DNA of 64,000 bases from Bolinopsis microptera (taxonomy: Eukaryota > Ctenophora > Tentaculata > Lobata > Bolinopsidae), in assembly GCF_026151205.1 (NCBI RefSeq), contig NC_087082.1:10052901-10116900 (forward strand), given 5' to 3'. The translations under genes and the position numbers were made by a program. Positions 6,849 to 62,458 of this stretch are shown in pieces (position 1 is the stretch's first letter; the number at the start of each line of letters is the position of its first letter). The notes under the pieces were generated by a model that worked only from the letters and a program-made list of their open reading frames with translations, was not told where the DNA came from and did not search any database.

Positions 6849-9800
6849 ATGACAGACACAAAGAAAGGAGATGTGAAACTGGAAGAAGTGAAGAAGAGCC
6901 CTAGTAAAGAGACCCTGCAAAAGGAGGGGGTCAAGAAGAGCAAGAGTAAGGACGCAGTAGCGAAAAAGGATAAAGGAAAGTCCCCTGAAAAACCGGTGAA
7001 ACCAGGTAAAGTTTTGCGGACCTTTACCGATAGTTGAAATACGGCATCTAGCAATGCCGATATAAGATGACGCTATCTAGCGTCATCTAGTGCTAGATGT
7101 CGAATTTCAACTATCGGTAAACAACTAGTTTTGCAAGTATTGGCCAAACACAGTTTCACTGATCGTGATTTTGTATCTGTTGAAACAAATTCTAAATATT
7201 ATTTATCACGAATCCTAACTTTATGTTTTGGTTTCAATCCATTGTATTTTTCAGAGATTACAGTAAACAAACCCTCGATTGTAGTAAACACCCCCTCGAT
7301 TGTAGTAAACACACCTTCAACCAAACCAAAAGAAAAGCGGAGCACCAACGGCATTAAACTCAGTGGTACAGCTGATGATACTGACTACGAAAGTAAAATC
7401 ATGAAATGGGACACTAGCCCGGATCCAGTTAATCCTTCCAAAAAAGCCCGTAAGTAATACATATTTCTTTGCATTTTGTTACAGTGAGGAGAATGGAAAT
7501 ATTTTCTGGATGGCTGTTTTAACTGACAGTAGTTTTAGACTTATTGTTAGTTTCACCCCAAAGAGTTACATACGGTATAACTGTGTCTCATGTCCGCATT
7601 TTAAGGGGGGGGGGGGGGGGGGGGGGGGACAATGGATATTTTTTTGTGAAACTTGATTTCGAGATAGCAGTTGACCAACAAACTAGGACCAGTGACCGAA
7701 CTTTTGAGGGGGTCCCGGACCCCAACCGCCAAACGGTGCCCGCGGGGCAGCCACGCCCATATTTGGTCCAAATTAGGCCCAATTAAGCCAAATACCCTGA
7801 ACATGCCCAAAACATAGATTTTAGGTGCTCTACTTGTAGCTAGTGGTCTCCTGAACTCGTATATGAAATATCATCAAGATTGGACAAAAAATGACTGAGT
7901 TATGAGCCAAAAACCATATGCCCATATTTGGGCATACGCACCAAATTTGGTAGATTTCGTCCCATAAATTGGTCAAATATCAATATTATTGAATGAAACT
8001 TACTTTATATGAAAGGTAAGCCTAAACTACATATTCTCTATAAGTTATAGCTTTATATCTGTTTAAATGTGGATACTAAGGCGAAAAAAACACAAAAAAT
8101 GAACTAAATTGCCCGTATCTTGGTTCGCGATACTTGCGGAATTGATCTCATTAAAATTGTAACAACTCAATCAGTTTTCAAAATTTTTCCATGAAATTTT
8201 CGGAATCGACTCGAAATCGCATTTCCACCTTATTTTGAGAACAGATTTTTGATTTAGGCCTCCAAAAAAATTTGGCGGCCAAATTCCAAAATTCTCCCGG
8301 AAAAATTCAGAATTTGGCCGCCAAATTTTTTTGGAGGCCTAAATCAAAAATCTGTTCTCAAAATAAGGTGGAAATGCAATTTCGAGTCGATTCCGAAAAT
8401 TTCATGGAAAAATTTTGAAAACTGATTGAGTTGTTACAATTTTAATGAGATCAATTCCGCAAGTATCGCGAACCAAGATACGGGCAATTTAGTTCATTTT
8501 TTGTGGTTTTTTCGCCTTAGTATCCACATTTAAACAGATATAAAGCTATAACTTATAGAGAATATGTAGTTTAGGCTTACCTTTCATATAAAGTAAGTTT
8601 CATTCAATAATATTGATATTTGACCAATTTATGGGACGAAATCTACCAAATTTGGTGCGTATGCCCAAATATGGGCATATGGTTTTTGGCTCATAACTCA
8701 GTCATTTTTTGTCCAATCTTGATGAAATTTCAAATACGAGTTCAGGAGACCACTAGCTACAAGTAGAGCACCTAAAATCTATGTTTTGGGCATGTTCAGG
8801 GTATTTGGCTTAATTGGGCCTAATTTGGACCAAATATGGGCGTGGCTGCCCCGCGGGCACCGTTTGGCGGTTGGGGTCCGGGACCCCCTCAAAAGTTCGG
8901 TCACTGGTCCTAGTTTGTTGGTCAACTGCTATCTCGAAATCAAGTTTCACAAAAAAATATCCATTGTCCCCCCCCCCCCCCCCCCCCCCCTTAAATACAG
9001 TATTGTTACATAACGTGCTAAATCAATCTCTACAATCGAACTAAAAGGCCCCCCAACCGTTGAAATCAACCTTGAATCAATATGTTTTTGAGCGCTGTGT
9101 CCAAATAACCTCACATGACAATGCTCACCCGGGGAGTTATCGGCAAAAACTGTCTTGATCACTTGACATGACCTTATAAGGAAGTTGGTCTAATTTCTCG
9201 TTAGGGTCAGAATTTTAGTCATCATCTGTACTGTTTCGTACTCCAAACTTCCAAGAGGTATCCTTAGTCCAAAGTGCCTAATTATTGCTGTCGTGTCTAC
9301 TGTCTAACAGTGAGATATTGACTACTACGAACAGTATGACGAGTCATTCAAACAAGGCACGCTTGAGAAGTTGAGAGAACCATTCAAACTATGCTGTTGT
9401 TTTTGGTCCGTTTTGCTAATTCTGCTTGTAAATCTCGGTATAAACATAATATTTGCACTACGGTTACTATTAATTCAATTAATTTAGATTAATTTAATCG
9501 AAAAATCACCAACCGGCGGAAAAATATTATGCAAGCCACTCAAGTTTCCTTTTATTTTGATCATTTTTTAAAAGAGTTGCTTACCATCGACAATTCTCAG
9601 GTCTTTTTATGGTTAAACAGTTTCTTCATCATGCGCCATTGTTTCCTAAATCACTCACGCGAAGAGTCCATAAAAAAGTACAAAGGAAACAAACTCAAGA
9701 TATGTTTGTTCATAGCTTATTCATAACCTATTTGGCAGAATTTGGTACCGCTAGAAGGTTCGCTGAGTTACTAGACACAGTCTTACAAATTAAGACTAGA

Positions 9801-23289: not shown

Positions 23290-24884
23290 AGTGATGCTAT
23301 TATCATGAAACAGCGTAGTCTAGTACTACTGTTATAGTTCACAAATCCAAAATTTATCCAAATAATTGTTAGTCAAAGCTTATCTGTCGTTTATAATTAG
23401 GGCTATATTAAGGCTTAATAATGTCGGTATCCTATACCCTCTGGAGGATTATAAGTTAAGTTGAGGCTAACTTTCAAAGTCGAATAAAACATTTTTAAAG
23501 GCCTATCTCAAAATTCTGTCTTGCTCATCTCTTCTAAATGATCCCTAGAACATATTCTGAACGTTTCAGCCTTCAGGGTGATTGCTCAAAAAATGTAGAA
23601 GAAGATAGATTTTTAGACTCGATTTTCAGGGCACACGAGTTGAGAACCCCATTAGGACCAATTTACGAAATTTTGGAAAACTGCCAAAAATCAACCAAAT
23701 TATGAGTTAGAATCAAATGAGAGGCAAGAATGAAATTTGTAACGTTTATGAACTGATAGCAATTCACATTTCAAAATTTACTCCTTCATAAACAAAATTA
23801 TCGATTTTTACATTCTACACACTATTTTCAACTCACCCTGTATATCCAGGTGGATGCGGATCGATAAAACGGAGTACGACGGAGACTTGAAGTCGTCTAT
23901 TGTGCGATAGGCATATTTTAGTTTAGGTACATATTATTATTTAAGAATAGGATTAGATTGAAATTTAGAATAACTTTAATCTTTATGTAATCACGTTCTT
24001 ATCCTAATGAAGTAATTGCTCAGTAGTATTTATATAGTTTATATTTTGTTTGTTGTAAATTATCATGAGTCATCTTCACCTCAAATTGTACCGTTAAGAT
24101 TCCACAGTTTCAGCACCTCAAATCATATAAGTTCTCATTTCCCAGCAGTTAGTTTCATACCTGTCATTAAGTTCTGTAGACGCATTTCACTTCAACCAGT
24201 AAGCTTCACTCAATTAATTAGCGATCCTATCAGGCCTATTTAATTTATCACGTGACACACCATCCCATTTATAATCTTCCGCTTTAGTTCACCTTGTTGA
24301 AAGAGTTTGTCACCATTAGTCTGCTTACTCCTTCCTAAACTCATTCCACTTTCATGTCACATGACCATTCCTCACAAGTTTTAGATTCACGAGTATTTCA
24401 TCTTTCTTCCACGAAACTCTTTATTTAAAGTCTTTATTTGTAAAACCTACCACTAAGTCGAGCAGCTAGGTACACCTAGTGTGCATTACAGTTACACTAT
24501 TCTCGGTCAGCGTGCCTTAAGGAATCTCTAATACAAAGCCGAACCGCATGGAGAACGGCACTATATGCACAAGAGAACGACACCTTGTCTTTATGTTTAG
24601 CTTGTACTACTACTAGCTATTGTATGAGTTGCTGGGATGGAACTCATACAACCTGTACTTCGTTTTATAGATCTATATTATAGCGTACGCTTATAGCTGT
24701 ATATTGACCACATTTGATATAATCACATACAACTATAGGAACTCAAGAACCGAGTACCTATCTAGGGATTTGGCTGCAGGACTGGAATCGGTCAGATATC
24801 AATCAATCTTCCTTTTTTCAAACCGGAACCGAGTGGCAAACAGGAGAATTAAAATCTTATTAAAATATTGGAGATTTAAGTATT
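23290..24884. other. Intergenic sequence
   Basis: No coding exon with codon-like composition is recognisable. The short open frames here look random. Confidence 0.5.
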
Positions 24885-25283
24885 CCTGAAACGAAAAATT
24901 CACCAAGTTTTTTTAAAAGCATTTTTCTCCGCGTTTCATGCAATTTGGTCACTTTTGGCGAAAAATAATATTTTGAATTTTCAGTCTCAAAAAAATGTAA
25001 GTGAAAAATCTTCAAAGTTTTTTTCTAAAAACTACTTTTCTCCGTGTTTTAAACTATTCCGATCATTTTGAGCCAATAAAAATTTTGCTTATTAGCTAAT
25101 TGATAATTATCCAATTAACTGATAGTCTGACGTAAAAATTGTCTTACAAAAGTTTTTCCTCCTGATAAGATGAACACCCTCGATTAATCTGCAAGCTTTT
25201 ACGATGTTCAAAACTAAAGATATTCGACAAACAAGAAAGGTGGTAAAAAGTGGTAAAAGTGGCAAAATGTGGCCTTAAGACAC
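24885..25283. repeat. Dispersed repeat, copy 1
   Basis: GAAACGAAAAATTCAC, TTTCTCCGCGTTTCATGCAA, TTTTGAGCCAATAAAA, GCTAATTGATAATTATCCAA and ATATTCGACAAACAAGAAA occur in the same order at 39031-39364 and 43755-44092. This copy has about 100 bp extra before the last block. Confidence 0.85.
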
Positions 25284-30966: not shown

Positions 30967-30999
<33 letters not shown>

Positions 31000-37834: not shown

Positions 37835-37920
37835 GTAGTACAGCTGCAGGCGATCGGTTCGATCTTGACTGTGCCTTTGGTGCAGTTTCTGTGAAAATCG
37901 ATAAGGCTGTACTGCAATTA

Positions 37921-38893
37921 GGGGTCATTCACATATTACGTAATCACTGTTTGAACAATTTTTACCCCCCCCCCCCCTCCCTCCCCAAGGACAAAAGCAA
38001 AAAGATCGGGAGAGACTTTAGGATCGAGGGACAATTATAGTCTTACATGTTCTGGAATTGCCGCTCACACACTACACAGTACACATTCTCGACAATCTCC
38101 AGTCACCTTAATCACATACTATTACTACACACTACACATTCTTAAATGATAATATCAAGTGTCTAAACGTACTCCATGCCATGTGATGGTTCATACTACC
38201 CTGATCATTATGATCGCCTAACATGTTTTCTTTTCGGTTTTCTGAAGTCAGTACCTAGTACAATTACATACGCCTCGATGTTTGTACGATTTTGGAGTCG
38301 ATGCTTTCCCATTGTAATGCGATCTCGGAAGGCAGGCCTCCCCTTTGCAGTGCCAGGAAGCGGTAGCTCTGCCTTCAGAGGTACATACCTATCGAGGATG
38401 ACTCGGACCGAACATTTTATAAGTCAACATTTTTTCAAAGTTTTTCTAGAAACTACTTTTGTTCACGATTCATTTATTTATGCTACCCTGATCATTATTA
38501 CTATTAGCCGAAATGTTTTTTCGATTTTCGAAGTCCGTACCTACATTCAGATTTCGGAAGGCTGTGGACGTGATTGGTTCCATACCTATACTTATTGAGA
38601 ACGTGATATTTGACCCGCAGATTTAAAAGAAAATACGAAAATTTTAAGGGAAAATGCGCGATTATATGTCGAGGAGAACTTTTAAAATCGCGAATTGTCG
38701 CGAGAATGGAGAAAATCTCGATTCCGCACGTGCCGCGATTTCCTTTTGTCCTTGCCCCCCCCCCCCCCCCCCCCCCCTTCCGTAATCAGTTTTATACACA
38801 GCTATTGTGTCAAAATTACATTAGCGTAATCATTTGGAACCCCCCCCCCCCCCCCCCCCCCCTTGACTGGTTACGTAATATGTGAACGACCCC
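37921..38893. mobile_element. 973-bp TIR element with poly-C tracts, copy A
   Basis: The ends GGGGTCATTCACATATTACG and CGTAATATGTGAACGACCCC are inverted repeats with one mismatch. Flanking TA on both sides fits a 2-bp duplication. Long C runs lie near both ends (about 37966 and about 38840) and at about 38756. The internal open frames have no recognisable transposase motif. The terminus resembles MITEs common in invertebrates; superfamily not assigned. Confidence 0.85.
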
Positions 38894-39030
38894 TACGGAC
38901 CCCTTAGTTATGAGTTATGAAACTCTAATATCGTGTGGTGAACTTTTCCACTGAGTAATTTCTGATTACTAAAATCTGCCGCCATTTACTGAACTCCAAC
39001 TACAAATATTGGTGATTTTAGTATTTAATT

Positions 39031-39364
39031 CTGGAAACGAAAAATTCACGGAGTTAATTTTAAAATCATTTTTCTCCACGTTTCATGCAATTTGATCACT
39101 TTTGGCGAGACGTTTTTTTTGAATTTTCGAAATTTTCGAAAGTCTCGAAAAAAAACGTCAGTGAAAAATGTTCAAAGTTTTTCTGAAAACTACTTTTCTC
39201 CGTGTTTTAAGCTATTTCGATCATTTTGAGCCAATAAAACAATTTTTGCTAATTAGCTAATTGATAATTATCCAATTAACTATAATTGTCTGACTAAAAA
39301 TATTCGACAAACAAGAAATGTGGTTAAAAGTGGCAAAAAGTGGCCTTAAGCATTAAGACACGTG
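39031..39364. repeat. Dispersed repeat, copy 2
   Basis: Same ordered blocks as 24885-25283, here inside duplication copy A. Confidence 0.85.
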
Positions 39365-40238
39365 GAAAACATATCAAAAATAAAGAAATGGTTTTAAAAT
39401 AAAAAATGTGCACGGATTATGGATATTAAGTCACAGCTTACTTTTAGGAAATCTTTCAAGAAATATATTATAAACAAAATTTCTAGTCTCAATAATGTAG
39501 TCCTCCTCAGATAATTTACTGAATTGTCTATTTTTGAGCAGGTTGCGAAGTTCGGTGCTATTTCTCTGTAAAAATCGTTTGAAAATCACGATTATTTAGG
39601 CAAAGTTCGAACTTACTACTAAGTTTTAGTTCAGTCTACCGCTTGGGAGTTCAGCTTTTCTCTAGATAATAAAAACCCACCCATAAGATACCGTAAGTTA
39701 ATCCTAAAACCGTTATGAACACTGGAAATGCCGCTGCTATTGTTTAAACCCAAGATCTGCCAAACATTAAAAAGCCACTCATTATATAAGCCACATTAAA
39801 AAGCCACTCATTATACAAGACGCATACAGGCTTTGTCATTTATAACTGTAAAGGTAAAGAGCTCATCACGTGCCATCCTATCTTAATGGGGGGGGGGGTT
39901 TACCCTGAATTTTTTGTGAATAGTGATGTGATAGTGAAAATACAGTTGCGCAATGGAGGTGTGGATAATATGAAAATGAGTAGCTGACGCAGGGAACATG
40001 ATCCCCGATCGCCCCATCGCGTGACTTGTAGTTGTAGTAGATCATAGTTGGGAGGTGGTACATTGTTAGCCAGCATCGTGTGACCATTGGTTTCAATTTA
40101 CAATTTACATGTTCGTTCTTTAGTTAGGTGAATTGTCAACTATGTCTTTGGCAATGGCTCCCTCCCTCCGTACTTTGATTGAAACATTTTATATCTTCTC
40201 ATCAGGTAAATTTGTCTTCTTTGAAATTAAACTTAAAA
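39365..40238. other. Non-coding stretch with a short poly-G tract
   Basis: A run of ten G at 39889-39898 is followed by TTTACCCTGAATTTTTTGTGAA. This resembles the terminus of the half-palindrome at 40239 (poly-G, TTCACCCAGATTTTTTTGTGAA), so it is probably a relic of the same family. Confidence 0.5.
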
Positions 40239-40242
40239 TTAA

Positions 40243-40277
<35 letters not shown>

Positions 40278-40925
40278 CACCCAGATTTTTTTGTGAAACT
40301 TGGTTTCGATATAGCAGTTGACCAACAAGCTTGGACCGGTGACCGAACTTTTGAGGGGTCCCAGACCCCAACCGCCAAACGGTGCCCGCGCGCGGGGCAG
40401 CCACGCCCATATTTGGTCCAAATTAGGCCCAATTTAGCCAAATACCCTGAACATGCCCAACATACTTGTAGCTAGTGGTCCCCTGAACTCGTATATGAAT
40501 TTTCATCAAGATTGGACAAAAAATGAGTTATGAGCCAAAAACCATATGCCCATATTTGGGCATACGCACCAAATTTGATCGATTTTGGCCCATAAATTGA
40601 TCAAATATCAATATTTTTGAATGAAACCAACTTTATATGGAAGGTAAGCCTATACTACACATTCTTTACGATTATCAGCTTAGTATCTACCTAACTGTGG
40701 ATTCTATGTTCAAATAATCGCAAAAATGAACAGAATTTCCCATATCTCAGTTCGCGATATTTGCAAAACTAATTTCGTTCAAAGCAATAGAACTCAATAG
40801 GGTTTCGATATTTTCTCATGAAATTTTCAGAATCAACGTAAAATCGCATTTCGACCTTAAGTTTTGGGACTAGGCCTTTTAAAAAATTTGGTGGCCAAAT
40901 TCTGAAATTCGCATTGAAGTCACAT
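40239..40925. mobile_element. Single arm of the palindromic poly-G element, copy A
   Basis: TTAA and 33 G start an arm homologous to 7601-8286 (GATAGCAGTTGACCAACAA, CCAACCGCCAAACGGTGCCC, CATATTTGGGCATACGCACC). Homology stops near the palindrome centre (TTTGGTGGCCAAATTCTG). No mirror arm follows. Confidence 0.88.
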
Positions 40926-41274
40926 ATTTATGCTCACCTGCTTGGTATCTTTATCACATATAAAAGAAAATGGGTTACATAAAAGGGCCAATGTTAACCT
41001 TTAGGGGCCATTATCTCGAAACTTTTTTTAACATTCGACCTTTAAAAAAAACCATGACGATATTGTTTTCGGTTTACTTTAGTGAAGTCCGTACCTAGTA
41101 AGAGCATCTAGTTCAGTTCTGCAAAATCTTCTGCAAACGTACCGCGATTTCCTTTTGTCATTGCTTCATACAATCATACTGTTTCAAAAGTTATAGAATC
41201 AATTATCCATCTAACTCAGTTACTGTTTTTTAGGTTGATACATGTTTTAAGTTGAGTTTCGTTAGCATCGAAGA

Positions 41275-42342
41275 ATGACTCCAACACCTAAAAGGGGCTC
41301 TGTACAACAAACTGAACCGGAACTAGCCAATGATTTGAAAAGGAAAGACGACCTGCTGTCGAAAATATGTCTTGATCTGTTTACAGCTGATGTGGAGGAA
41401 TACAAAACAGTTGAAAAAGGAAAAAAGAAACGACTTAAGGAATTAGATTTGTTTGTCTTGGACAACTCAATCAGGGAAACTACTGTAGGGTCCCTTCGGG
41501 GTCACACTCTGGAGAACAAGATAGCAATATTCGAGGAAATAAAGAAGTGTGGGTTTAAGAACTATGTAATTGAGGCTTTTAACAACGAGCGCAGAGTTGG
41601 AGACCATTTCTTGGAGACACTAAATGCTGCTGGGGAAGATCTAAGTGGGGCTTTTGCTTTCTGTGAAACCTGGGATGCAGTTGAAGATGAAGTCCCTCAG
41701 GAAGAGCCTATTCCGATAGGTATGAGAAAATGCAAGCAATTTGGAGTTCCTAACTTGATCATAGAGCTAGACTTAGTCTACTACAAAGTTGATTACACTA
41801 GATTTGATGCGTCGGATATATGTCAGCTGTTGAAGAAACGGATAGACTGGATAAGAGAACAAGTGTCAAAAGATTCGATGATATTCGTCAACCTGAGAGA
41901 CGTGTCCGATGCTATAGCAAAGCACCCAGAAAGAGTTTGGGAAGTTGTTAACTTTCTTTCCACTCTTTCAATTGATGATCGGATATTTGGAATTCTTATT
42001 GAAGATCTGGGAAAGTACGACCAAGACCATCTAGGGGGTATGACCAAGGCAATAAGGAGCGAGATGATTAGATGTGGGTGGGAGGATGGACAGCTGTTGG
42101 TGCATGTGCACGAACAGTGGGGTCTCATGCACGGGATAGTCCTGGAAATGTTAGCTATGGGAGGTACAGGCATATGGGCTGGGGTATGCATAGAGGGCGC
42201 AGCTATGGGACATGCGGACACCTGCACCACAATCATCAATCTGATAAGACTGGGGAACACGAAGGTCCTTAACAGTTTTAACCGATATACGAATAGAAAC
42301 TTGCCTTGTTTTGACACCGCCAGTAAAAGGATGTTTTTGTGA
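41275..42342 (+). CDS. DRE-TIM metallolyase (HMGL-like), 3'-truncated copy A
   Basis: An uninterrupted, intronless 355-codon frame. Residues about 58-70 read FVLDNSIRETTVG, the place of the DRE-TIM barrel signature (D-x-x-RE). Residues near 276-283 (LVHVHEQWG) supply the HxH metal-binding pair typical of 2-isopropylmalate, homocitrate and citramalate synthases, HMG-CoA lyase and pyruvate carboxylase. These enzymes form or break C-C bonds next to a metal-bound enolate. A charged N-terminal segment of about 55 residues precedes the barrel. After NSFN (position 42282) the sequence leaves the duplicated block and ends with 19 unrelated codons. Copy B shows the original continuation with an EF-hand-like region, so this copy has lost its C-terminal half. 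Substrate is unknown; activity of the bare barrel is doubtful. Confidence 0.85.
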   Translation: MTPTPKRGSVQQTEPELANDLKRKDDLLSKICLDLFTADVEEYKTVEKGKKKRLKELDLFVLDNSIRETTVGSLRGHTLENKIAIFEEIKKCGFKNYVIEAFNNERRVGDHFLETLNAAGEDLSGAFAFCETWDAVEDEVPQEEPIPIGMRKCKQFGVPNLIIELDLVYYKVDYTRFDASDICQLLKKRIDWIREQVSKDSMIFVNLRDVSDAIAKHPERVWEVVNFLSTLSIDDRIFGILIEDLGKYDQDHLGGMTKAIRSEMIRCGWEDGQLLVHVHEQWGLMHGIVLEMLAMGGTGIWAGVCIEGAAMGHADTCTTIINLIRLGNTKVLNSFNRYTNRNLPCFDTASKRMFL

Positions 42343-42558
42343 ATTTTACGTTATACTAGTACTCTCACGTTTTCTCCGTTTCAAACTCTCCTGGTAACTT
42401 TAGAACTTTAGTCGTAGATGCTTAGTCTTACAGTTGACAAACTCACACTCAACGATTTTTACCCCCCCCCCCCCCCCCCCCCCCCAAGGACAAAAGCAAA
42501 AAGATCGGGAGAGACTTTAGGATCGAGGGACAATTATAGTCTTACATGTTCTGGAATT
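42283..42558. mobile_element. Junction segment with a fragment of the GGGGTC element
   Basis: 42283-42450 is unique sequence following the duplication breakpoint. From about 42452 (GATTTTTACCCC) the poly-C tract, CAAGGACAAAAGCAAAAAGA and the block through GTTCTGGAATTG repeat 37958-38058. A third, partial copy of the element therefore sits exactly at the junction of the two 4.45-kb copies. Confidence 0.8.
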
Positions 42559-42643
42559 GTAGTACAGCTGCAGGCTATCGGTTCGATCTTGACTGTGCCT
42601 TTGGTGCAGTTTTGTGAAAATCGATAAGGCTGTACTGCAATTA

Positions 42644-43617
42644 GGGATCATCCACATATTACGTAATCACTGTTTGAACAATTTTTACCCCCCCCCCCCC
42701 CCCCCTCCCCAAGGACAAAAGCAAAAAGATCGGGAGAGACTTTAGGATCGAGGGACAATTATAGTCTTACATGTTCTGGAATTGCCGCTCACACACTACA
42801 CAGTACACATTCTCGACAATCTCCAGTCACCTTAATCACATACTATTACTACACACTACACATTCTTAAATGATAATATCAAGTGTCTAAACGTACTCCA
42901 TGCCATGTGATGGTTCATACTACCCTGATCATTATGATCGCCTAACATGTTTTCTTTTCGGTTTTCTGAAGTCAGTACCTAGTACAATTACATACGCCTC
43001 GATGTTTGTACGATTTTGGAGTCGATGCTTTCCCATTGTAATGCGATCTCGGAAGGCAGGCCTCCCCTTTGCAGTGCCAGGAAGCGGTAGCTCTGCCTTC
43101 AGAGGTACATACCTATCGAGGATGACTCGGACCGAACATTTTATAAGTCAACATTTTTTCAAAGTTTTTCTAGAAACTACTTTTGTTCACGATTCATTTA
43201 TTTATGCTACCCTGATCATTATTACTATTAGCCGAAATGTTTTTTCGATTTTCGAAGTCCGTACCTACATTCAGATTTCGGAAGGCTGTGGACGTGATTG
43301 GTTCCATACCTATACTTATTGAGAACGTGATATTTGACCCGCAGATTTAAAAGAAAATACGAAAATTTTAAGGGAAAATGCGCGATTATATGTCGAGGAG
43401 AACTTTTAAAATCGCGAATTGTCGCGAGAATGGAGAAAATCGCGATTCCGCACGTGCCGCGATTTCCTTTTGTCCTTGCCCCCCCCCCCCCCCCCCCCTT
43501 CCGTAATCAGTTTTATACACAGCTATTGTGTCAAAATTACATTAGCGTAATCATTTGGAACCCCCCCCCCCCCCCCCCCCCCCCCCTTGACTGGTTACGT
43601 AATATGTGAACGACCCC
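42644..43617. mobile_element. TIR element with poly-C tracts, copy B
   Basis: Duplicate of 37921-38893. The left end has changed to GGGATCATCCACATATTACG, while the right end is unchanged. C tracts differ in length from copy A. Confidence 0.85.
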
Positions 43618-43754
43618 TACGGACCCCTTAGTTATGAGTTATGAAACTCTAATATCGTGTGGTGAACTTTTCCACTGAGTAATTTCTGATTACTAAAATC
43701 TGCCGCCATTTACTGAACTCCAACTACAAATATTGGTGATTTTAGTATTTAATT

Positions 43755-44092
43755 CTGGAAACGAAAAATTCACGGAGTTAATTTTAAAATCATTTTTCTC
43801 CACGTTTCATGCAATTTGATCACTTTTGGCGAGACGTTTTTTTTTGAATTTTCGAAATTTTCGAAAGTCTCGAAAAAAAACGTCAGTGAAAAATGTTCAA
43901 AGTTTTTCTGAAAACTACTTTTCTCCGTGTTTTAAGCTATTTCGATCATTTTGAGCCAATAAAACAATTTTTGCTAATTAGCTAATTGATAATTATCCAA
44001 TTAACTAATTGTCTGACTAAAAATATTCGACAAACAAGAAATGTGGTTAAAAGTGGCAAAAAGTGGCCTTATTAAGCATTAAGACACGTGGA
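43755..44092. repeat. Dispersed repeat, copy 3
   Basis: Same as 39031-39364, carried along in duplication copy B. Confidence 0.85.
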
Positions 44093-44969
44093 AAACATAT
44101 CAAAAATAAAGAAATGGTTTTAAAATAAAAAATGTGCACGGATTATGGATATTTATAAGTCACAGCTTACTTTTAGGAAATCTCTCAAGAAATATATTAT
44201 AAACAAAATTTCTAGTCTCAATAATGTAGGTAGTCCTCCTCAAATAATTTACTGAATTGTCTATTTTTGAGCAGGTTGCGAAGTTCCGTGCTGTTTCTCT
44301 GTAAAAATCGTTTGAAAATCGCGATTATTTAGGCAAAGTTCGAACTTACGTTTAGTTCAGTCTACCGCTTGGGAGTTCAGCTTTTCTCTAGATAATAAAA
44401 ACCCACCCATAAGATACCGTAAGTTAATCCTAAAACCGTTATGAACACTGAAAATGCCGCTGCTATTGTTTAAACCCAAGATCTGCCAAACATTAAAAAG
44501 CCACTCATTATATAAGCCACATTAAAAAGCCACTCATTATACAAGACGCATACAGGCTTTGTCATTTATAACTGTAAAGGTAAAGAGCTCATCACGTGCC
44601 ATCCTATCTTAATGGGGGGGGGGGGGGGGTTTACCCTGAATTTTTTGTGAATAGTGATGTGATAGTGAAAATACAGTTGCGCAATGGAGGTGTGGATAAT
44701 ATGAAAATGAGTAGCTGACGCAGGGAACATGATCCCCGATCGCCCCATCGCGTGACTTGTAGTTGTAGTAGATCATAGTTGGGAGGTGGTACATTGTTAG
44801 CCAGCATCGTGTGACCATTGGTTACAATTTACAATTTACATGTTCGTTCTTTAGTTAGGTGAATTGTCAACTATGTCTTTGGCAATGGCTCCCTCCCTCC
44901 GTACTTTGATTGAAACATTTTATATCTTCTCATCAGGTAAATTTGTCTTCTTTGAAATTAAACTTAAAA
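44093..44969. other. Non-coding stretch with a poly-G tract, copy B
   Basis: It corresponds to 39365-40238. The G tract at 44613 onward is longer (about 17 G) than in copy A. Confidence 0.5.
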
Positions 44970-45655
44970 TTAAGGGGGGGGGGGGGGGGGGGTTCACCCA
45001 GATTTTTTTGTGAAACTTGGTTTCGATATAGCAGTTGACCAACAAGCTTGGACCGGTGACCGAACTTTTGAGGGGTCCCAGACCCCAACCGCCAAACGGT
45101 GCCCGCGGGGCAGCCACGCCCATATTTGGTCCAAATTAGGCCCAATTTAGCCAAATACCCTGAACATGCCCAACATACTTGTAGCTAGTGGTCCCCTGAA
45201 CTCGTATATGAATTTTCATCAAGATTGGACAAAAAATGAGTTATGAGCCAAAAACCATATGCCCATATTTGGGCATACGCACCAAATTTGATCGATTTTG
45301 GCCCATAAATTGATCAAATATCAATATTTTTGAATGAAACCAACTTTATATGGAAGGTAAGCCTATACTACACATTCTTTACGATTATCAGCTTAGTATC
45401 TACCTAACTGTGGATTCTATGTTCAAATAATCGCAAAAAATGAACAAAATTTCCCATATCTAGTCTCAGTTCGCGATATTTGCAAAACTGATTTCGTTTA
45501 AAGCAATAGAACTCAATAGGGTTTCGATATTTTCTCATGAAATTTTCAGAATCAACGTAAAATCGCATTTCGACCTTAAGTTTTGGGACTAAGCCTTTTA
45601 AAAAATTTGGTGGCCAAATTCTGAAATTCGCATTGAAGTCACATATTTATGCTTA
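44970..45655. mobile_element. Single arm of the palindromic poly-G element, copy B
   Basis: Duplicate of 40239-40925 with 19 G instead of 33. Confidence 0.88.
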
Positions 45656-46000
45656 CCTGCTTGGTATCTTTATCACATATAAAAGAAAATGGGTTACATA
45701 AAAGGGCCAATGTTAACCTTTAGGGGCCATTATCTCGAAACTTTTTTTAACATTCGACCTTTAAAAAAAACCATGACGATATTGTTTTCGGTTTACTTTA
45801 GTGAAGTCCGTACCTAGCTAGTAAGAGCATCTAGTTCAGTTCTGCAAAATCTTCTGCAAACGTACCGCGATTTCCTTTTGTCCTTGCTTCATACAATCAT
45901 ACTGCTTCAAAAGTTATAGAATCAATTATCCATCTAACTCAGTTACTGTTTTTTAGGTTGATACAATATGTTTTAAGTTGAGTTTCGTTAGCATCGAAGA

Positions 46001-47796
46001 ATGACTCCAACACCTAAAAGGGGCTCTGTACAACAAAATGAACCGGAACTAGCCAATGATTTGAAAAGGAAAGACGACCTGCTGTCGAAAATATGTCTTG
46101 ATCTGTTCACAGCTGATGTGGAGGAATACAAAACAGTTGACAAAGGAAAAAAGAAACGACTTAAGGAATAAGATTTGTTTGTCTTGGACAACTCAATCAG
46201 GGAAACTACTGTAGGGTCCCTTCGGGGTCACACTCTGGAGAACAAGATAGCAATATTCGAGGAAATAAAGAAGTGTGGGTTTAAGAACTATGTAATTGAG
46301 GCTTTTAACAACGAGCGCAGAGTTGGAGACCATTTCTTGGAGACACTAAATGCTGCTGGGGAAGATCTAAGTGGGGCTTTTGCTTTCTGTGAAACCTGGG
46401 ATGCAGTTGAAGATGAAGTCCCTCAGGAAGAGCCTATTCCGATAGGTATGAGAAAATGCAAGCAATTTGGAGTTCCTAACTTGATCATAGAGCTAGACTT
46501 AGTCTACTACAAAGTTGATTACACTAGATTTGATGCGTCGGATATATGTCAGCTGTTGAAGAAACGGATAGACTGGATAAGAGAACAAGTGTCAAAAGAT
46601 TCGATGATATTCGTCAACCTGAGAGACGTGTCCGATGCTATAGCAAAGCACCCAGAAAGAGTTTGGGAAGTTGTTAACTTTCTTTCCACTCTTTCAATTG
46701 ATGATCGGATATTTGGAATTCTTATTGAAGATCTGGGAAAGTACGACCAAGACCATCTAGGGGGTATGACCAAGGCAATAAGGAGCGAGATGATTAGATG
46801 TGGGTGGGAGGATGGACAGCTGTTGGTGCATGTGCACGAACAGTGGGGTCTCATGCACGGGATAGTCCTGGAAATGTTAGCTATGGGAGGTACAGGCATA
46901 TGGGCTGGGGTATGCATAGAGGGCGCAGCTATGGGACATGCGGACACCTGCACCACAATCATCAATCTGATAAGACTGGGGAACACGAAGGTCCTTAACA
47001 GTTTTAACTGCAAATATTTGCGTGATGCAGCCATAAATGTTACAAAGATCGTTACCACTGACAAACCGTGAAACAACCTATTTACGGAGAAAGAGCCACT
47101 GACATGGTTTTTGGCTTCCTTTTCAATCAAATCTCTGAAACAGGTCCCGTAAAAATGGCGGCCGACTCTGAATTTGATTTGGTCGAATTCTTGGGAATTA
47201 AATCAGAGATGCGTATAACAACGATAGCTTCACCAGAAATGATTCTAATAAAGTTGAGGACAGTTTTTGGAGAGGATCCAAATTTTACTCTTGAGTGTGC
47301 CCAAAAAATGAAGGCTACCATTGTGAGCAACATGTCAGCCGGAAGGAAAGAAGAATACAACAGCAAGTCAGGCCTTGCCATGCTTTTTGATCAAGCTGGC
47401 GGTAAAATCACTCCTGAAATTGCACAAATCATCGTATCTGCCAATGAAAACAAACTTAACATCGACAGACTGATCGCGGAAGTCAAAGAAAGATGGGACT
47501 TTTATGACTCCAAAGATGGTGTGGAGGATGACTCCGTCAAGTTTCACCACTTCTACGAAGGTTTTATGGCTCCTTACTTTGGATGCTACAGATGTGAAGA
47601 TAGTCAGGCTAGGCTAAGAGCACTAGACATGGATCTTGACGGCAATATAAGTTGGTTGGAGTTTAAATACTTTCTGATTTGGGCGGGCCGAGAGTATCCT
47701 GACGTACAGAACGTGGCCGAACTTCTGGATAAAACCTTTAGGAACGGACTTATTCCTGCCATGATGGATGAACTGGACTTGATGAAGAGAAAATAA
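46001..47796 (+). pseudogene. DRE-TIM metallolyase with C-terminal EF-hand-like region, copy B, broken
   Basis: It starts at the same ATG context as copy A. Codon 57, TTA in copy A, is TAA here (46169-46171), just before the DNSIRE signature. The barrel then runs open to a TGA at 47069-47071. Just there the frame must shift back by one base (consistent with loss of one C in a CC run) to enter a 242-codon continuation. The continuation begins KQPIYGERATDMVF and ends MDELDLMKRK at 47796. It contains a calcium-loop-like DMDLDGNISWLEF (about 47629-47667), the pattern of an EF-hand. The ancestral protein was therefore about 600 residues, barrel plus EF-hand region, in one exon. Two lesions argue for a pseudogene. 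Sequencing error at one site, readthrough or internal initiation at 46262 or later cannot be excluded. Confidence 0.8.
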
Positions 47797-51485: not shown

Positions 51486-51637
51486 GTACCTAGGTTTGAG
51501 ATATGTTGATTAGGTTCAGGACTTTAGTTCCAACAGACTATCTGTCTGTTCCCACAATGGAACTTGGAAGTTGCGTTGTGTTTTAGTTAGAATGAGTTGA
51601 CCAAATAATACGACTTGAAATCGGGTTGGTTGTAGCT

Positions 51638-52225
51638 ATGTATCAATGTATCAATGTATCAATGTATCAATGTATCAATGTATCAATGTATCAATGTATC
51701 AATGTATCAATGTATCAATGTATCAATGTATCAATGTATCAATGTATCAATGTATCAATGTATCAATGTATCAATGTATCAATGTATCAATGTATCAATG
51801 TATCAATGTATCAATGTATCAATGTATCAATGTATCAATGTATCAATGTATCAATGTATCAATGTATCAATGTATCAATGTATCAATTTGTATCAATGTA
51901 TCAATGTATCAATGTATCAATGTATCAATGTATCAATGTATCAATTTGTATCAATGTATCAATGTATCAATTTGTATCAATGTATCAATGTATCAATGTA
52001 TCAATGTATCAATGTATCAATGTATCGATGTATCAATGTATCAATGTATCAATGTATCAATGTACCAATGTATCAATGTATCAATGTATCAATGTATCAA
52101 TGTATCAATGTATCAATGTATCAATGTATCAATGTATCAATGTATCAATGTATCAATTTATCAATGTATCAATGTATCAATGTATCAATGTATCAATGTA
52201 TCAATGTATCAATGTATCAATGTAT
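51638..52225. repeat. TATCAATG octamer microsatellite, about 73 copies
   Basis: Nearly pure 8-bp repeat with a few TTTGTATCAA interruptions and single substitutions. Because 8 is not a multiple of 3, all three plus frames are open and encode a 24-nt-period MYQCINVS string. This is not a gene. Confidence 0.98.
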
Positions 52226-54330
52226 TAACAATTAGGAAAGATGATAGGTTTTACTATGTCTTTGGGATGCGGTCAGGAAGTGGTGAATTATGGGTGTGCC
52301 CAGGGGTTTTATAGGTTGGATCACATGTCCATCACGGGACTGCTACGTGTGACCCATACGGTAAGTTTGGAGGTCCTGATTGGTGGGGACTATTGACGTA
52401 GGATTTACACACACGGAAACGATTATATTGGTCATCGTTTCCGCTAGCAGCATGAGCTGGACCATTACCCCATTAATGGATCAGTGCGTTATAAATCACC
52501 TTAACGTTTTCAAGCCAGGGTTTTTTTACTTCTGGCGTCACAATCACTTAAGTGGATTGTTCTCATTAACGTCTTAATCATTTAAGTGGATCCACTCCTT
52601 TTGCGGTTGGCTGGCAGAGGTGCTGTCGGGAAACACATGTGCATGAGCTGGCTCATTAACTTCTGGCGCCATGCCCAGCACCGGTAGACAGCTGGCAACA
52701 TACCAACAAGGGATGGACTTATTATAAGGACTAAGGCGGGCAAAGGTATGGTCCCACAGTACCAAAGTTCTACAAGGAAACACATATTACTCCAATCTTC
52801 AAAAAAGGTGACAGAGCCAGAGCTGCGAATTACCGGCCAGTTGCTCTCACGTCTCCATATCATAAAAGTGTGTGAACGTGTTCTCCGGGTCGAGTAATGG
52901 TTGATTTCATAGAGAAGAATCAGCTACTCGCCTACTCTGTGACAACCAGCATGGGTTCCGTTCAGGGAGGAGCTGTCTGACCCAACTGCTGAGTCATGTG
53001 GATGACATAGTACAAGGCTTGGTTAACAATGCTGACACGGACGCCATTTACCTGGACTTCGCGAAAGCTTTTGATAAAGTGGATCACTGGTTGCTTCTTC
53101 TGAAAATGAAACGGATGGGGTTCCACGAAAAGCTGATAAAATGAATCGAATCCTTCTTGACTAACCGCAAGCAGTTTGTAGTACTGAATGGAGTGTCATC
53201 ACTTGCTGCTGTAATCCTGAGCGGAGTGCCTCAAGGAACTGTTTTGAGTCCGTTGCTTTTTATACTTTTTTATTAACGAAATGAAGTTGTGAGTCACCGG
53301 ATCAATCATCAGGTTCTTTGCAGTACAGATGATACCCGAATTCTAATTCTACGACACATCTATAATAGTCTAGCAGATGTTGAGATATTACAGCATGATC
53401 TCAACTGTGTCGTTAAGTGGGGAAAATGCAACAACATGGCACTTCACGAGGATAAATTTGAGCTACTTGTCTACAAACATTGTCCTCAAAACACCTTGCT
53501 AGACCACCCATTTGCCATCCTAACCCAATTATACCAAGTCTCAGACGGCAACATGTTTTACCTTTCCAAAATAGTTGAAGTTTTAGGCCTTAGGGGTGAT
53601 GGTTTCAGCTGACTTATTTTGAAGCCCCCACGTTACTCTTATAGCCGAACGTGCGCGCGTGCTCGTAAATTTGCTGCTTGGGTTCTGTGTGTGTTTAAAA
53701 CGAGAAACAAAGTCACCATGCTGACTCTCCAAAAATCTCTCATCAGAATCCATTTCACATTTCGAGTACTGTTGTGGCCCCTTATGGAATATTTCAAAGA
53801 GTGCAGACGTCAAACAACTGGAAGGGGTTCAGCGCACGTTCACAACGATCGAATAAATGGCCTACAACATCTAAAATACTGACAGAGACTTAAGGCCTTA
53901 AATTTGATGTCATGTCGTTGCAACGGAGGAGAGAACGATATACCTGCATCATCCATATATGGAAAGTGCTGCACGGCAAGTGCCCAAATGATGTCAACAT
54001 CCAGTTCTCCGCAACACTCCGACCGCCGACGCGACATGGCCAAAAGGCAGTTATTCCCACTCTGAATAAATCTTGACATACGTTGCATGCCACTTTTCGT
54101 GCGCGAAATATTTGGGATACGTAACATGTATCAAAATAAATCTAACTAGCAGTCAGCGCAACCAAACGCTCTACGATAATTCGTGTGCAGTAATTGGACC
54201 TCGATTGTGGAACTTAATTCCACCAAACATGCATACTATCGAAGATCCCCTGCAGTTTAAAGAAATGCTTACAACGTTTGTGAAATCATTCCGGGAGAAG
54301 CCTCTAATGCTCTAATGGCAGGATACAGCT

Positions 54331-59485: not shown

Positions 59486-62458
59486 TTACCATATATTGGG
59501 GTCACCTCGATTTTGGAGGGATAGCAAGTGCTTTTTAAGGTTAGATTTAATAATACCTGACGAGGCTGATAAGTCTGAATTTTTGGAAGAACCCGGGATT
59601 ATTATCCCATCTTCATTAGCATCACATATTTCGAATACATAGGGGATGAGATCATTCCAAATTTTCGTAGAGGTGTACAAAACGTTCTGTTGGGAGATAT
59701 CTAACCTCAGTTATAGGAAAATCAGACGAAGTTTTTCATTTCTAGGACAGAACTTGAGAAGATCTGTAATCGACTGGGGGACATCAAATTTAAGAATTTT
59801 GAATAGTTCCATAAATGTATGGTACATGTGCAGATTCTCCAGGTTCATAATTTTCTGCTCAGTGAATAGCGGTTTAGTGTGTTCAAGACAGTAGTTCTTG
59901 CTAGCCATGTGTTCGTTATAAGTTAATGATGATATTATACAATTAAGTACATCATTATTCATTAAATACAATACTAACGTAATTTAATCCATTCTAGGAA
60001 AATGATGTGATCTCGGAGGCTATTCGTCTACTCGACGTTGGTGGTTGCTCTACGGTGTACCAGTGCTGCTAGCCACGCCAGTTGCGGTTGTATGTTGGTG
60101 GACTTGTGTTAGGAGTCGTGTTCTTCGGTGTGACAAGTGTGTACTATCGGTGAGAAGATAGATTACAGTTGCAGTGTACGGTCGGTGTGACCAGTGTTTG
60201 TACTATCGGTGAAAAGATAGATTACAGTGTACGGTCGGTGTGACCAGTGTGGACTATCGGTGAATATAAGTCAATTGGATTGTACTTAAGATAGATTCCA
60301 GTACGAAGAACTTCAGAGAAGAACTCCACAGATCTCAACAGAAGACAAGTAATAGTGTCGGTGTATTGTAGAGATCTCAACAGAAGACAAGTAATAGTGT
60401 CGGTATATTGTAGTAGAGAAGTTACATTGATTGATAGTGATTTGGATACTTTATATAATTGAAGTGATTGAGTTATTATATATATTGAATTACTATTTAC
60501 CTTTGTTAGTCATTGCAGTGCGAGTGCGTAGTGGAGTGTGTTAGTTTGGAAAGCAATTGACTAGGAAAGATTCACTTAGTACAATATTGTGTATTATCTC
60601 ATTATCAGTGTTCAAGTAGATAGTATTGTGTATTATCTAAATTTACTTATTCCAGTTTTATAATATCGTGTTTATCTTATTATCACTTGAACGTGCACAG
60701 GTTAAGTTGTATTATTTATGATCAAAATTGGGAATGTTACCAAATAGCAGTCTTATACATCGTTTTTGAATTGCAAAGATTTTATTCAGCTTATGTTTAG
60801 GGATCCCACCCAAGCAACTTATACAATAGCTAAGATGTGACATAAAAAGAGCATTGTATAGTTTCAAATATTCAGATTTGGGAATAAATTTGCAAATTCT
60901 CTTAATCGATACAATACTGGAGTTCAGCTTCAAAGATAAATGATTAAGATGTGGTTCCCAACTTAGCTGTTCGTCTATTATCACCCCAAGAAGCTTTGTA
61001 CATTGAACTTTTTTTAGCCTTTTTTTCATCTATTGAAATCGTTAGATTCCTGTTAAAGGGCCGTGTTCTGGCACAGGTCTGTGTTGCTCTTGACAAACCT
61101 GGCTGAAAATGCATATAACATAAACAACTTTTCCCTGCATTTATATGTAACTTGTTAGACTCCATATAGTTACTGACTTGTTTCATTACATGATTAGCTT
61201 TTTCAAAATCTTCCTGTGCTGAACGACCAGTCACAAAAATATTTGTATCATCAGCAAAAAGGACGAATTCAGCCAAGCTTGAGGAGCTCACAATATCATT
61301 TATATAAATCAGAAATGGTAGAGGTCCTAACACTGACCCCTGGGGTACACCATACTCAACTGAACACTTGTCCGATTTTTCAGTTTGAAAAGAAGTTACT
61401 CGGCTACGGTTTGTAAGATAACTAGCAAGAGTTTTTAGTGCAATACCTCTTACTCCATAGTGTTCAAGTTTATGCAGAAGTTTGTCGTGCTCAATTGTGT
61501 CAAATGCTTTACTTAGATCAATAAATATTCCAATTACATGATTTTTCTGTTCAATCTCATTAAGTATTTTATTGACAGAATAGTTTACGGCATGAGATGT
61601 TGAGTGTTGTTTTCTAAAACCAAATTGTCGATCATAAATCACGTTCATAGCACTGAGGTATAATATATAATTATATAACCTATTATAGATTATTTTTTCA
61701 AGTATTTTTCCAAACATCGGTAATGTAGAAACAGGTCGATAGTTATCAAGGCATCGTGAGTCTCCTTTTTTATAAATTGGTGTAATAGAGCCCGTTTTAA
61801 GCTTGTTTGGAAAGACCCCATTGTCCAAGAACCAATTAAAGAATCTAGAGATATGACCAGACAGATAATTTACACTCTTTTTTAAGACTTTAACAGAGAT
61901 ATCACTTGCCTTCCCATTTTCAAGGCTACCAATAATTTTACTTATCTCTTCCTCGTCACAGGGGCTGAGAAAAAAAGAGTTCACTATTCTTTCTCTGCCC
62001 TGGAGGTATTGTTTAAACTTCGTTTTATTGAAATTGCCATCAGTTACCGTACGAGATGGTACAGAAGATTGAACTTTTGAATTAAGATTACGAGCAATAG
62101 TTGTAGACGAGAAGTAGATGTTAAATCCGTTTGCAATCTCACGGCGTTCAGTTACAATTCTACCATCAATTAAGAATGATGCTTTTATATCTTTTTTAGA
62201 TTTTCACCTGAGTTCGTTAATCAATTCCCAGGTTTTTTAAATATTGCCTTTAGCAAGTTCAAATTTTTTCCCATAGTGGGCTTTTTTCGCAGATTTTATA
62301 GCTCTGTTTAAGATAGAACGATACTCCTTATTCTTAAGATATAAAGTTTCCCCACCTAATGGGTTGATTTTGGTACACGAAACCTTCCATCGCTTGTAGT
62401 GAAAGCATTTAGTAAACACAGATTTAATCAACGCAGAAGTGATCCATGGATTCATCAA
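59486..62458 (-). mobile_element. Non-LTR retrotransposon with RT domain, partly open, 5'-truncated
   Basis: Read leftward from 62458: the linker region (NRAIKSAKKAHYGKKFELAK), then a long RT frame 61984-60944. The frame contains LKTGSITPIYKKGDSRCLDN, YRPVSTLPMFGKILEKIIYN, FGFRKQHSTSHAV, IFIDLSKAFDTIEHDKLL, YGVPQGSVLGPL and the catalytic FVLFADDTN. A frameshift near 61020 leads to LLGVIIDEQLSWEPHLNHL (61000-60940), then LFMSHLSYCISCLGGIPKHK. After a non-homologous gap of about 0.7 kb, the C-terminal part resumes (HTKPLFTEQKIMNLENLHMY at about 59900, SNLKKHLLSLQNRGDPNIW ending at 59486). The RT catalytic motifs are intact, so it is younger than the 50770 LINE. The endonuclease is not seen in the window. 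Confidence 0.9.
59990..60710. repeat. Foreign segment inside LINE 2, with short tandem repeats
   Basis: This interval lacks RT homology. CGGTGTGACCAGTGT...ACTATCGGTGA-AAGATAGATTACAG is repeated about three times (60124-60265, unit about 56 bp). CTCAACAGAAGACAAGTAAT...GTGTCGGT is repeated twice (about 60330-60420). Confidence 0.65.

Follow-up and report, generated by a model that had tools for sequence, protein, structure and literature searches.

Ilborin is described in PMC8864356 as a TIM-barrel/EF-hand protein of 560–610 aa, found in several groups of marine invertebrates and in two cyanobacteria (Okeania hirsuta and Moorea producens), with several paralogues per species being common. All ilborin orthologues are described there as carrying the EF-hand, and the roles of the motif residues discussed below (one Arg, one Glu and two His) are taken from the same description. 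Literature searches for HMGL-like proteins with an EF-hand and horizontal gene transfer together, and for a DRE-TIM metallolyase together with an EF-hand, found no such combination.

The window, i.e. the whole stretch of 64,000 nucleotides from Bolinopsis microptera that was analysed, contains a partial tandem duplication of a gene that, as judged from its predicted protein, is a homologue of the ilborin gene. The features of the locus are as follows.

37835–42282, forward strand: first unit of the duplication, copy A (4,448 bp; repeat-bearing upstream DNA and codons 1–336; BLASTN self-comparison)
37919–38895, no strand assigned: putative MITE-like repeat inside the unit (inverted ends at 37921 and 38893, flanked by TA)
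41275–42342, forward strand: open reading frame of copy A, truncated ilborin homologue (355 aa, stop TGA; ORF list and homology)
42283–42450, no strand assigned: junction filler (168 bp; short-word BLASTN of 42271–42575 against the window)
42451–42558, forward strand: third, partial copy of unit-internal sequence (equals 37954–38060 and 42677–42784)
42559–47008, forward strand: copy B of the unit (4,450 bp; BLASTN self-comparison and letter-by-letter list)
46001–47071, forward strand: 5' portion of the ilborin gene in copy B (codon 57 is TAA; ends with TGA at 47069–47071)
47068–47796, forward strand: 3' portion of the gene in copy B, read in the next frame (242 codons; contains the EF-hand loop DMDLDGNISWLEF)

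Copies A and B are direct copies with sharp edges and 98.04% identity over 4,481 columns (BLASTN self-comparison), and the letter-by-letter list gave 24 substitutions and 17 indels (gap openings), in agreement with the preliminary description of a tandem copy with few differences. Ten of the 17 indels lie outside homopolymer runs, and five of these ten are exact extra copies of the adjacent 2–4 bp. The unit comprises about 3.4 kb upstream of the ilborin gene and codons 1–336, and the coding sequence accounts for four differences (two replacements, one stop and one silent change). The repeat inside the unit is present also in copy B; its ends read GGGGTC[AG]TTCACATATTACGTAA, from which its MITE-like class would follow.

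The reading frame of copy A represents the first 56% of the gene: residues 1–336 are encoded within the unit, the last 19 residues are unrelated and encoded by the junction, and the gene part stops about 60 bases before the site of the frame shift in copy B. An open barrel cut at the duplication breakpoint had been proposed for copy A, and this was confirmed. Copy B, in turn, covers the gene from end to end (about 598 codons) and carries the two lesions that had been reported for it. Codon 57 (46169–46171) is TAA in copy B and TTA in copy A. Of six bacterial relatives, five have Leu at this position, four of them closely related to one another, and one has Phe. The frame shift, at about 47068, lies outside the duplicated stretch; the Okeania ilborin aligned to copy B in two frames (46154–47065 and 47074–47685; E 1e-58) that meet at the breakpoint named in the preliminary description. 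The tail (47068–47796) is fully open, and 0 of 20,000 letter shuffles of it stayed open. The two copies are thus nested, A being a fragment of what B spans, and the earlier picture of 'complementary broken halves', with only the 3' half kept in copy B, does not hold. A single open frame of 560–610 aa is found neither in copy A (355 aa) nor in copy B (stop and frame shift), so the gene is a homologue of the ilborin gene and not an intact ilborin gene; no intact copy was found within the 64-kb window.

The homology to known ilborins was established via cyanobacterial proteins, and the animal ilborins were compared by their description in PMC8864356. Three cyanobacterial relatives (Okeania and Moorena) are 35–36% identical to copy A (E about 1e-48), and the Okeania and Moorena proteins matched the tail of copy B with E 1.5e-10 to 5.2e-9. 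The predicted barrel is followed by one EF-hand loop, D-M-D-L-D-G-N-I-S-W-L-E (encoded in 47068–47796), with D at positions 1, 3 and 5 and E at 12; the Pfam EF-hand matches to the tail (E 0.01 and 0.029) are below the cut-offs. Neither part of the protein matched NCBIfam, and a sequence search of the PDB gave one chance-level match (E 0.87). No relatives were found in the viral contigs with copy A or alignment A2, in the genome collection with copy A, or in the plasmid collection with either part; pattern-based scans overlook distant relatives, as was evident from the Okeania and Moorena matches to copy A. Scanning the window for Rfam families (at gathering scores) and for tRNA genes gave no matches.

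The profile comparison puts the barrel with the HMGL-like (DRE-TIM) enzymes and not with triosephosphate isomerase. Seven ilborin heads aligned to 13 HMGL-like proteins with a probability of 96.7% (hhalign; E 4.5e-10, 249 columns, 14% identity), against 0.3% for the control with six triosephosphate isomerases; the window protein alone reached 14.7% against the HMGL-like proteins, and with E. coli LeuA as the only partner alignment A2 reached 27.6%. All seven A2 sequences share the residues D63, R67, E68, H277 and H279 (copy A numbering), and the D-x-x-x-R-E and H-x-H motifs are in register with the HMGL motifs; all five, D63 included, are counted among the residues for metal binding and catalysis. 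Pfam HMGL-like matched two bacterial ilborins below the cut-off (E 0.0088 and 0.015), with FlpD scoring better, and no Pfam match to the window barrel was obtained at E 0.1. The AlphaFold2 model of copy A alone had a mean pLDDT of 47 and a pTM of 0.44, so the Foldseek list gives no more than a hint: ranks 1 and 2 were triosephosphate isomerases, ranks 3, 4 and 6 citramalate synthase, HMG-CoA lyase and isopropylmalate synthase, and nothing reached E 0.001. The protein type that had been named at the outset, a metal-dependent barrel with an EF-hand, was right.

The locus is best explained, with a probability of roughly 0.55, by a real, non-homologous partial tandem duplication after which the full-length copy B decayed, leaving copy A as a truncated fragment; it looks like an ordinary gene duplication with decay, an assembly error being less likely. 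Among the matches listed for the junction, the 168-bp filler has none in the window. The third partial copy includes a 24-nt C tract (42462–42485) and is connected to the beginning of copy B through a single shared base pair. Unequal crossing-over between repeats was rejected because the breakpoints have only this 1 bp in common; the near-absence of breakpoint homology, the copied piece and the filler would fit template switching during replication, or end joining that involved a templated insertion. The ilborin gene (a DRE-TIM barrel followed by a single EF-hand) would thereby have been duplicated in part, with its upstream DNA. Copy B, at the original 3' end, would have lost its function later, by the nonsense change just ahead of the first catalytic motif and the frame shift ahead of the EF-hand part; copy A would have kept an open barrel and lost the rest of the protein. 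We infer that the animal's chromosome carries the duplication, that copy B is dead, and that copy A is a fragment with no selected role.

The explanations listed in the preliminary description, which included one allele assembled as two, were well chosen, and this one is the foremost competitor, less probable yet with some weight: A and B would be alleles of a single ilborin gene that the assembly set one after the other, and the lesions in B allele-specific or consensus errors. False duplications are a known problem in assemblies of heterozygous genomes. The 0.5% substitutions and the short repeat-type indels look allelic. The filler and the third partial copy adjoin near the C tract in the junction, a typical site of assembly failure; the defects in B amount to one substitution and one frame change, single-letter events that could be consensus errors. 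Against an artefact, the window contains no Ns, the junction has its own third partial copy, and copy B has a clean start at the unit's first base, beside an unrelated join, with the left flank of A missing there, whereas a haplotype misjoin would be expected more often within shared sequence. When related repeats elsewhere in the window were used as outgroup for 40280–40910, four changes appeared to be derived in A and two in B, with one site undecided; this suggests derived changes in both copies, and speaks for two distinct sequences, not for a single one with errors in two readings. No substitution falls in the final 838 bp of the unit (chance 0.007 under an even spread, for a stretch picked after inspection of the data), which suggests conversion or another uneven process over simple divergence; taken by itself, the widest interval free of substitutions is not unusual (P 0.16).

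It is unlikely that copy A is a live gene for a barrel-only ilborin, expressed from the duplicated promoter while B decays. Its 336 codons without a stop, the retention of all five motif residues, the same start context as in B and nearly the same 3.4 kb upstream would fit such a gene; however, no AATAAA or ATTAAA occurs within 1.6 kb past its stop (the first is at 43958), an EF-hand is present in all ilborin orthologues according to PMC8864356, and four coding differences between A and B are too few to reveal selection. More doubtful still is the fuller version, i.e. a living EF-hand-free ilborin whose barrel has been cut from its calcium switch under the same promoter, with the calcium-binding version being lost.

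Joint use of both pieces, through readthrough of the stop at codon 57 plus a frameshift at 47068 in copy B, or through splicing from A to B, is highly improbable despite the open tail of B: it needs two independent recoding events per message, no slippery heptamer was seen by eye at GAC AAA CCG TGA, and in two cyanobacterial relatives a single frame encodes the complete protein. Programmed frameshifting in B was accordingly set aside.

Genomes commonly contain decaying partial tandem copies, and as a duplication the locus is ordinary. It retains some value, since little is known of ilborin as an animal protein and since, provided that the locus is real, barrel and EF-hand have here been separated by nature; should copy A be alive, it would be a natural test of the role of the EF-hand in this little-known family.

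Compared with the HMGL-like/DRE-TIM metallolyases (2-isopropylmalate synthase, citramalate synthase, HMG-CoA lyase; PF00682), the protein shares the motifs D-x-x-x-R-E and H-x-H, and differs in the low identity (14%) and in the lack of a Pfam match for its barrel; barrel homology and motif residues place it in this group, and a divalent-metal-dependent lyase or condensing activity is putative. The cyanobacterial ilborin-like proteins (Okeania hirsuta L020/L032, Moorena sp. L018/L019) have a barrel 35–36% identical and the same order of tail and EF-hand, and lack the N-terminal extension of the window protein; their genes differ in that they adjoin ovoA, and those of L018 and L020 are open in one frame, while that of L019 contains two TAA. 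The cyanobacterial ilborin gene lies directly after ovoA, which encodes the sulfoxide synthase and putative methyltransferase (NCBIfam name) of ovothiol synthesis, in four genomes, and an ilborin remnant is found there in a fifth. This adjacency in a few cyanobacteria is a lead that may outweigh the locus itself, since a connection of ilborin with ovothiol can thereby be tested directly. With ilborin as described for Halisarca dujardini and its homologues in PMC8864356, the window protein has in common the aldolase-type TIM barrel on the N-terminal side, the single C-terminal DxDxDG-type EF-hand, the Arg-Glu and two His motif residues, and the length (about 598 codons in B against 560–610 aa); the difference is that here a truncated copy stands beside a full-length copy with two lesions.

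Self-comparison of the window returned a single long direct repeat, and the near-identical tandem copies of the preliminary description were recovered from it at 98.04% identity over 4,481 columns. The duplicated unit comprises approx. 3.4 kb of repeat-rich upstream DNA and codons 1-336 of a gene for ilborin, a TIM-barrel/EF-hand protein; copy B, unlike copy A, runs on into the remainder of the gene.

37835-42282, copy A of the direct repeat (self-comparison of the window)
42559-47008, copy B of the direct repeat (self-comparison of the window)
42451-42558, third, partial copy of unit-internal sequence (compared with 37954-38060 and 42677-42784)

The copies differ by 24 substitutions (15 of them transitions) and 17 indels; seven indels are homopolymer-run changes, and five of the other ten duplicate the neighboring 2-4 bp exactly. 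Copy A is followed by 168 bp that matched nothing in the rest of the window and then by the third copy, which joins copy B at its first base; the two share 1 bp at this join.

Copy A encodes a product of 355 aa, 336 of which are derived from the unit. Copy B starts at 46001 and is closed by TAA at codon 57; its frame ends at 47069-47071, and 242 open codons follow in the next frame, up to 47796, so that both the stop and the change of frame first reported for this copy are seen in its reading frames. The coding differences between the copies are four (codons 13, 36, 47 and 57), i.e. two replacements, one silent change and the stop. The ilborin of Okeania hirsuta aligns with copy B at 46154-47065 and then, in a different frame, at 47074-47685 (E 1e-58); both lesions thus fall within a single ancestral ilborin gene. 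In an alignment of the copy A protein with six bacterial ilborins (four of these being close kin of one another), the residue at codon 57 is Leu in copy A and in five bacterial rows and Phe in the sixth, and D63, R67, E68, H277 and H279 are invariant in 7/7 sequences. Membership in the family was examined in cyanobacterial genomes found via a Moorena plasmid gene: copy A had matches in four of the nine genomes searched, three at 35-36% identity (E about 1e-48) and one at 31% (E 9e-26), and the tail of copy B had matches in three of these four.

Differences between the copies within 40280-40910 were polarized with the repeat at 7600-8995, which is about 81% identical to 40252-40910 inside the unit, and whose two arms are concordant but not independent as outgroup. 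This repeat is a near-perfect (98.6%) inverted pair whose ends carry 23-24-nt G/C tracts. Four changes were assigned to copy A (gain of CGCG, a lost A and two substitutions) and two to copy B (a 5-bp gain and one substitution), with one site undecided; a second, poorer outgroup (24863-25139) assigned to copy A a gain of TA and possibly the loss of a T. Each copy thus seems to carry changes of its own, which argues against a single sequence having been read twice, once wrongly; such changes fit paralogues as well as alleles. The final 838 bp of the unit contain no substitution (chance 0.007 under even spread, in a test chosen post hoc), and the spacing variance of the 24 substitutions is higher than in 99% of 20,000 random placements (P 0.009); the longest substitution-free gap, taken by itself, is unremarkable (P 0.16). 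The uneven spread would be accounted for by conversion between the copies, but also by other causes.

We favor a genuine duplication and subsequent loss of copy B (probability roughly 0.55). The breakpoints have no more than 1 bp in common, and part of the unit is present once more at the junction. Little homology together with templated insertion is characteristic of template switching or of polymerase-theta-type end joining. An assembly or haplotype artefact appears unlikely; a 24-nt C tract, a place where an assembler could err, begins about ten bases past the join of filler and extra piece. That the truncated copy A, open as its frame is, is live seems improbable.

By its content the window appears eukaryotic. 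Only three ORFs of at least 110 aa overlap the first 31.7 kb, LINE-type reverse-transcriptase ORFs were recognized by eye, and the duplicated gene is of animal type.

60944-61984, minus strand, LINE-type reverse-transcriptase ORF (by eye)

A long array of tandem repeats of about 52 bp each (1-1179) begins at or before the window start. The array of an 8-bp unit, ATGTATCA (51626-52314; by eye from ORFs), is open in three frames with MYQCINVS repeats and is very likely not a protein gene. Unusually long C/G runs, up to 33 nt, were observed at 30968-30999, 38755-38777, 38840-38862 and 40243-40275, several at or near repeat ends.

In Okeania and three other cyanobacterial genomes, ilborin is located 99-308 bp downstream of ovoA on the same strand; a fifth genome retains a remnant.

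L032:4430-8829, ovoA-ilborin locus (Okeania)
L033:7866-12029, ovoA-ilborin locus
L034:4952-9110, ovoA-ilborin locus
L035:6995-11261, ovoA-ilborin locus
L038:4871-7546, ovoA-ilborin locus, ilborin as 3' remnant

Two ovoA neighbors, scanned in part, matched NCBIfam TIGR04344 and TIGR04345, TIGR04344 below its cut-off because the loci in this first scan were incomplete; in a later scan the cut-off was passed in 5/5 genomes. Two of the five genomes likewise have an ilborin gene that looks decayed: at L034:7374-9110 it has two TAA codons (483-484) beside an open ovoA frame, and in the fifth genome (G255, L038:7265-7546) no more than the last 94-98 codons survive, a stop among them, next to an ovoA frame that is intact. 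Of 388 genomes in the order, 5 have ilborin at an identity of at least 85%, and 137 have TIGR04344 above cut-off. TIGR04344 frames of at least 700 codons, as expected for ovoA with the methyltransferase part, were counted in seven genomes by reading of the listed places, including all five with ilborin; the genomes G252 and G268, with such frames, gave no ilborin match. Two genomes (G207, G004) have distant relatives only (30% and 25%), with no ovoA beside them among the ORFs compared. A phylum-wide sample (4/386 with a match) and a sample of relatives (5/196) added solely a marginal match (G521, E 7e-4). The five genomes are close relatives (85-100% identity to Okeania ilborin), and the adjacency may therefore be one evolutionary event. 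It suggests a possible functional link for ilborin, and we put forward, as a hypothesis from gene order, a role of this protein in or close to ovothiol metabolism. The accessible part of PMC8864356 does not mention ovothiol, and the name ilborin was not found outside that paper in the literature searched.

The initial label 'metallolyase/EF-hand' proved right. With hhalign, seven ilborin heads matched 13 HMGL-like proteins (12 from cyanobacterial genomes and one E. coli LeuA) at 96.7% probability (E 4.5e-10, 249 columns, motifs in register), versus 0.3% for a control of six triosephosphate isomerases; the values were 97.2% versus 0.1% without the window protein, 14.7% versus 1.2% for the window protein alone, and 27.6% for the seven-sequence alignment against E. 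coli LeuA alone. Two bacterial ilborins scored below cut-off with the HMGL-like model (E 0.0088 and 0.015; FlpD slightly better), and two scored far below the cut-off of the NCBIfam leuA model (E 5.6e-5 and 1.1e-4). In a Foldseek search with a poor model, triosephosphate isomerases came first; citramalate synthase ranked 3, HMG-CoA lyase 4 and isopropylmalate synthase 6, and no hit reached significance. The profile result for the barrel agrees with the remote relatives of ilborin by HHpred, homocitrate synthase and HMG-CoA lyase, that are given in PMC8864356.
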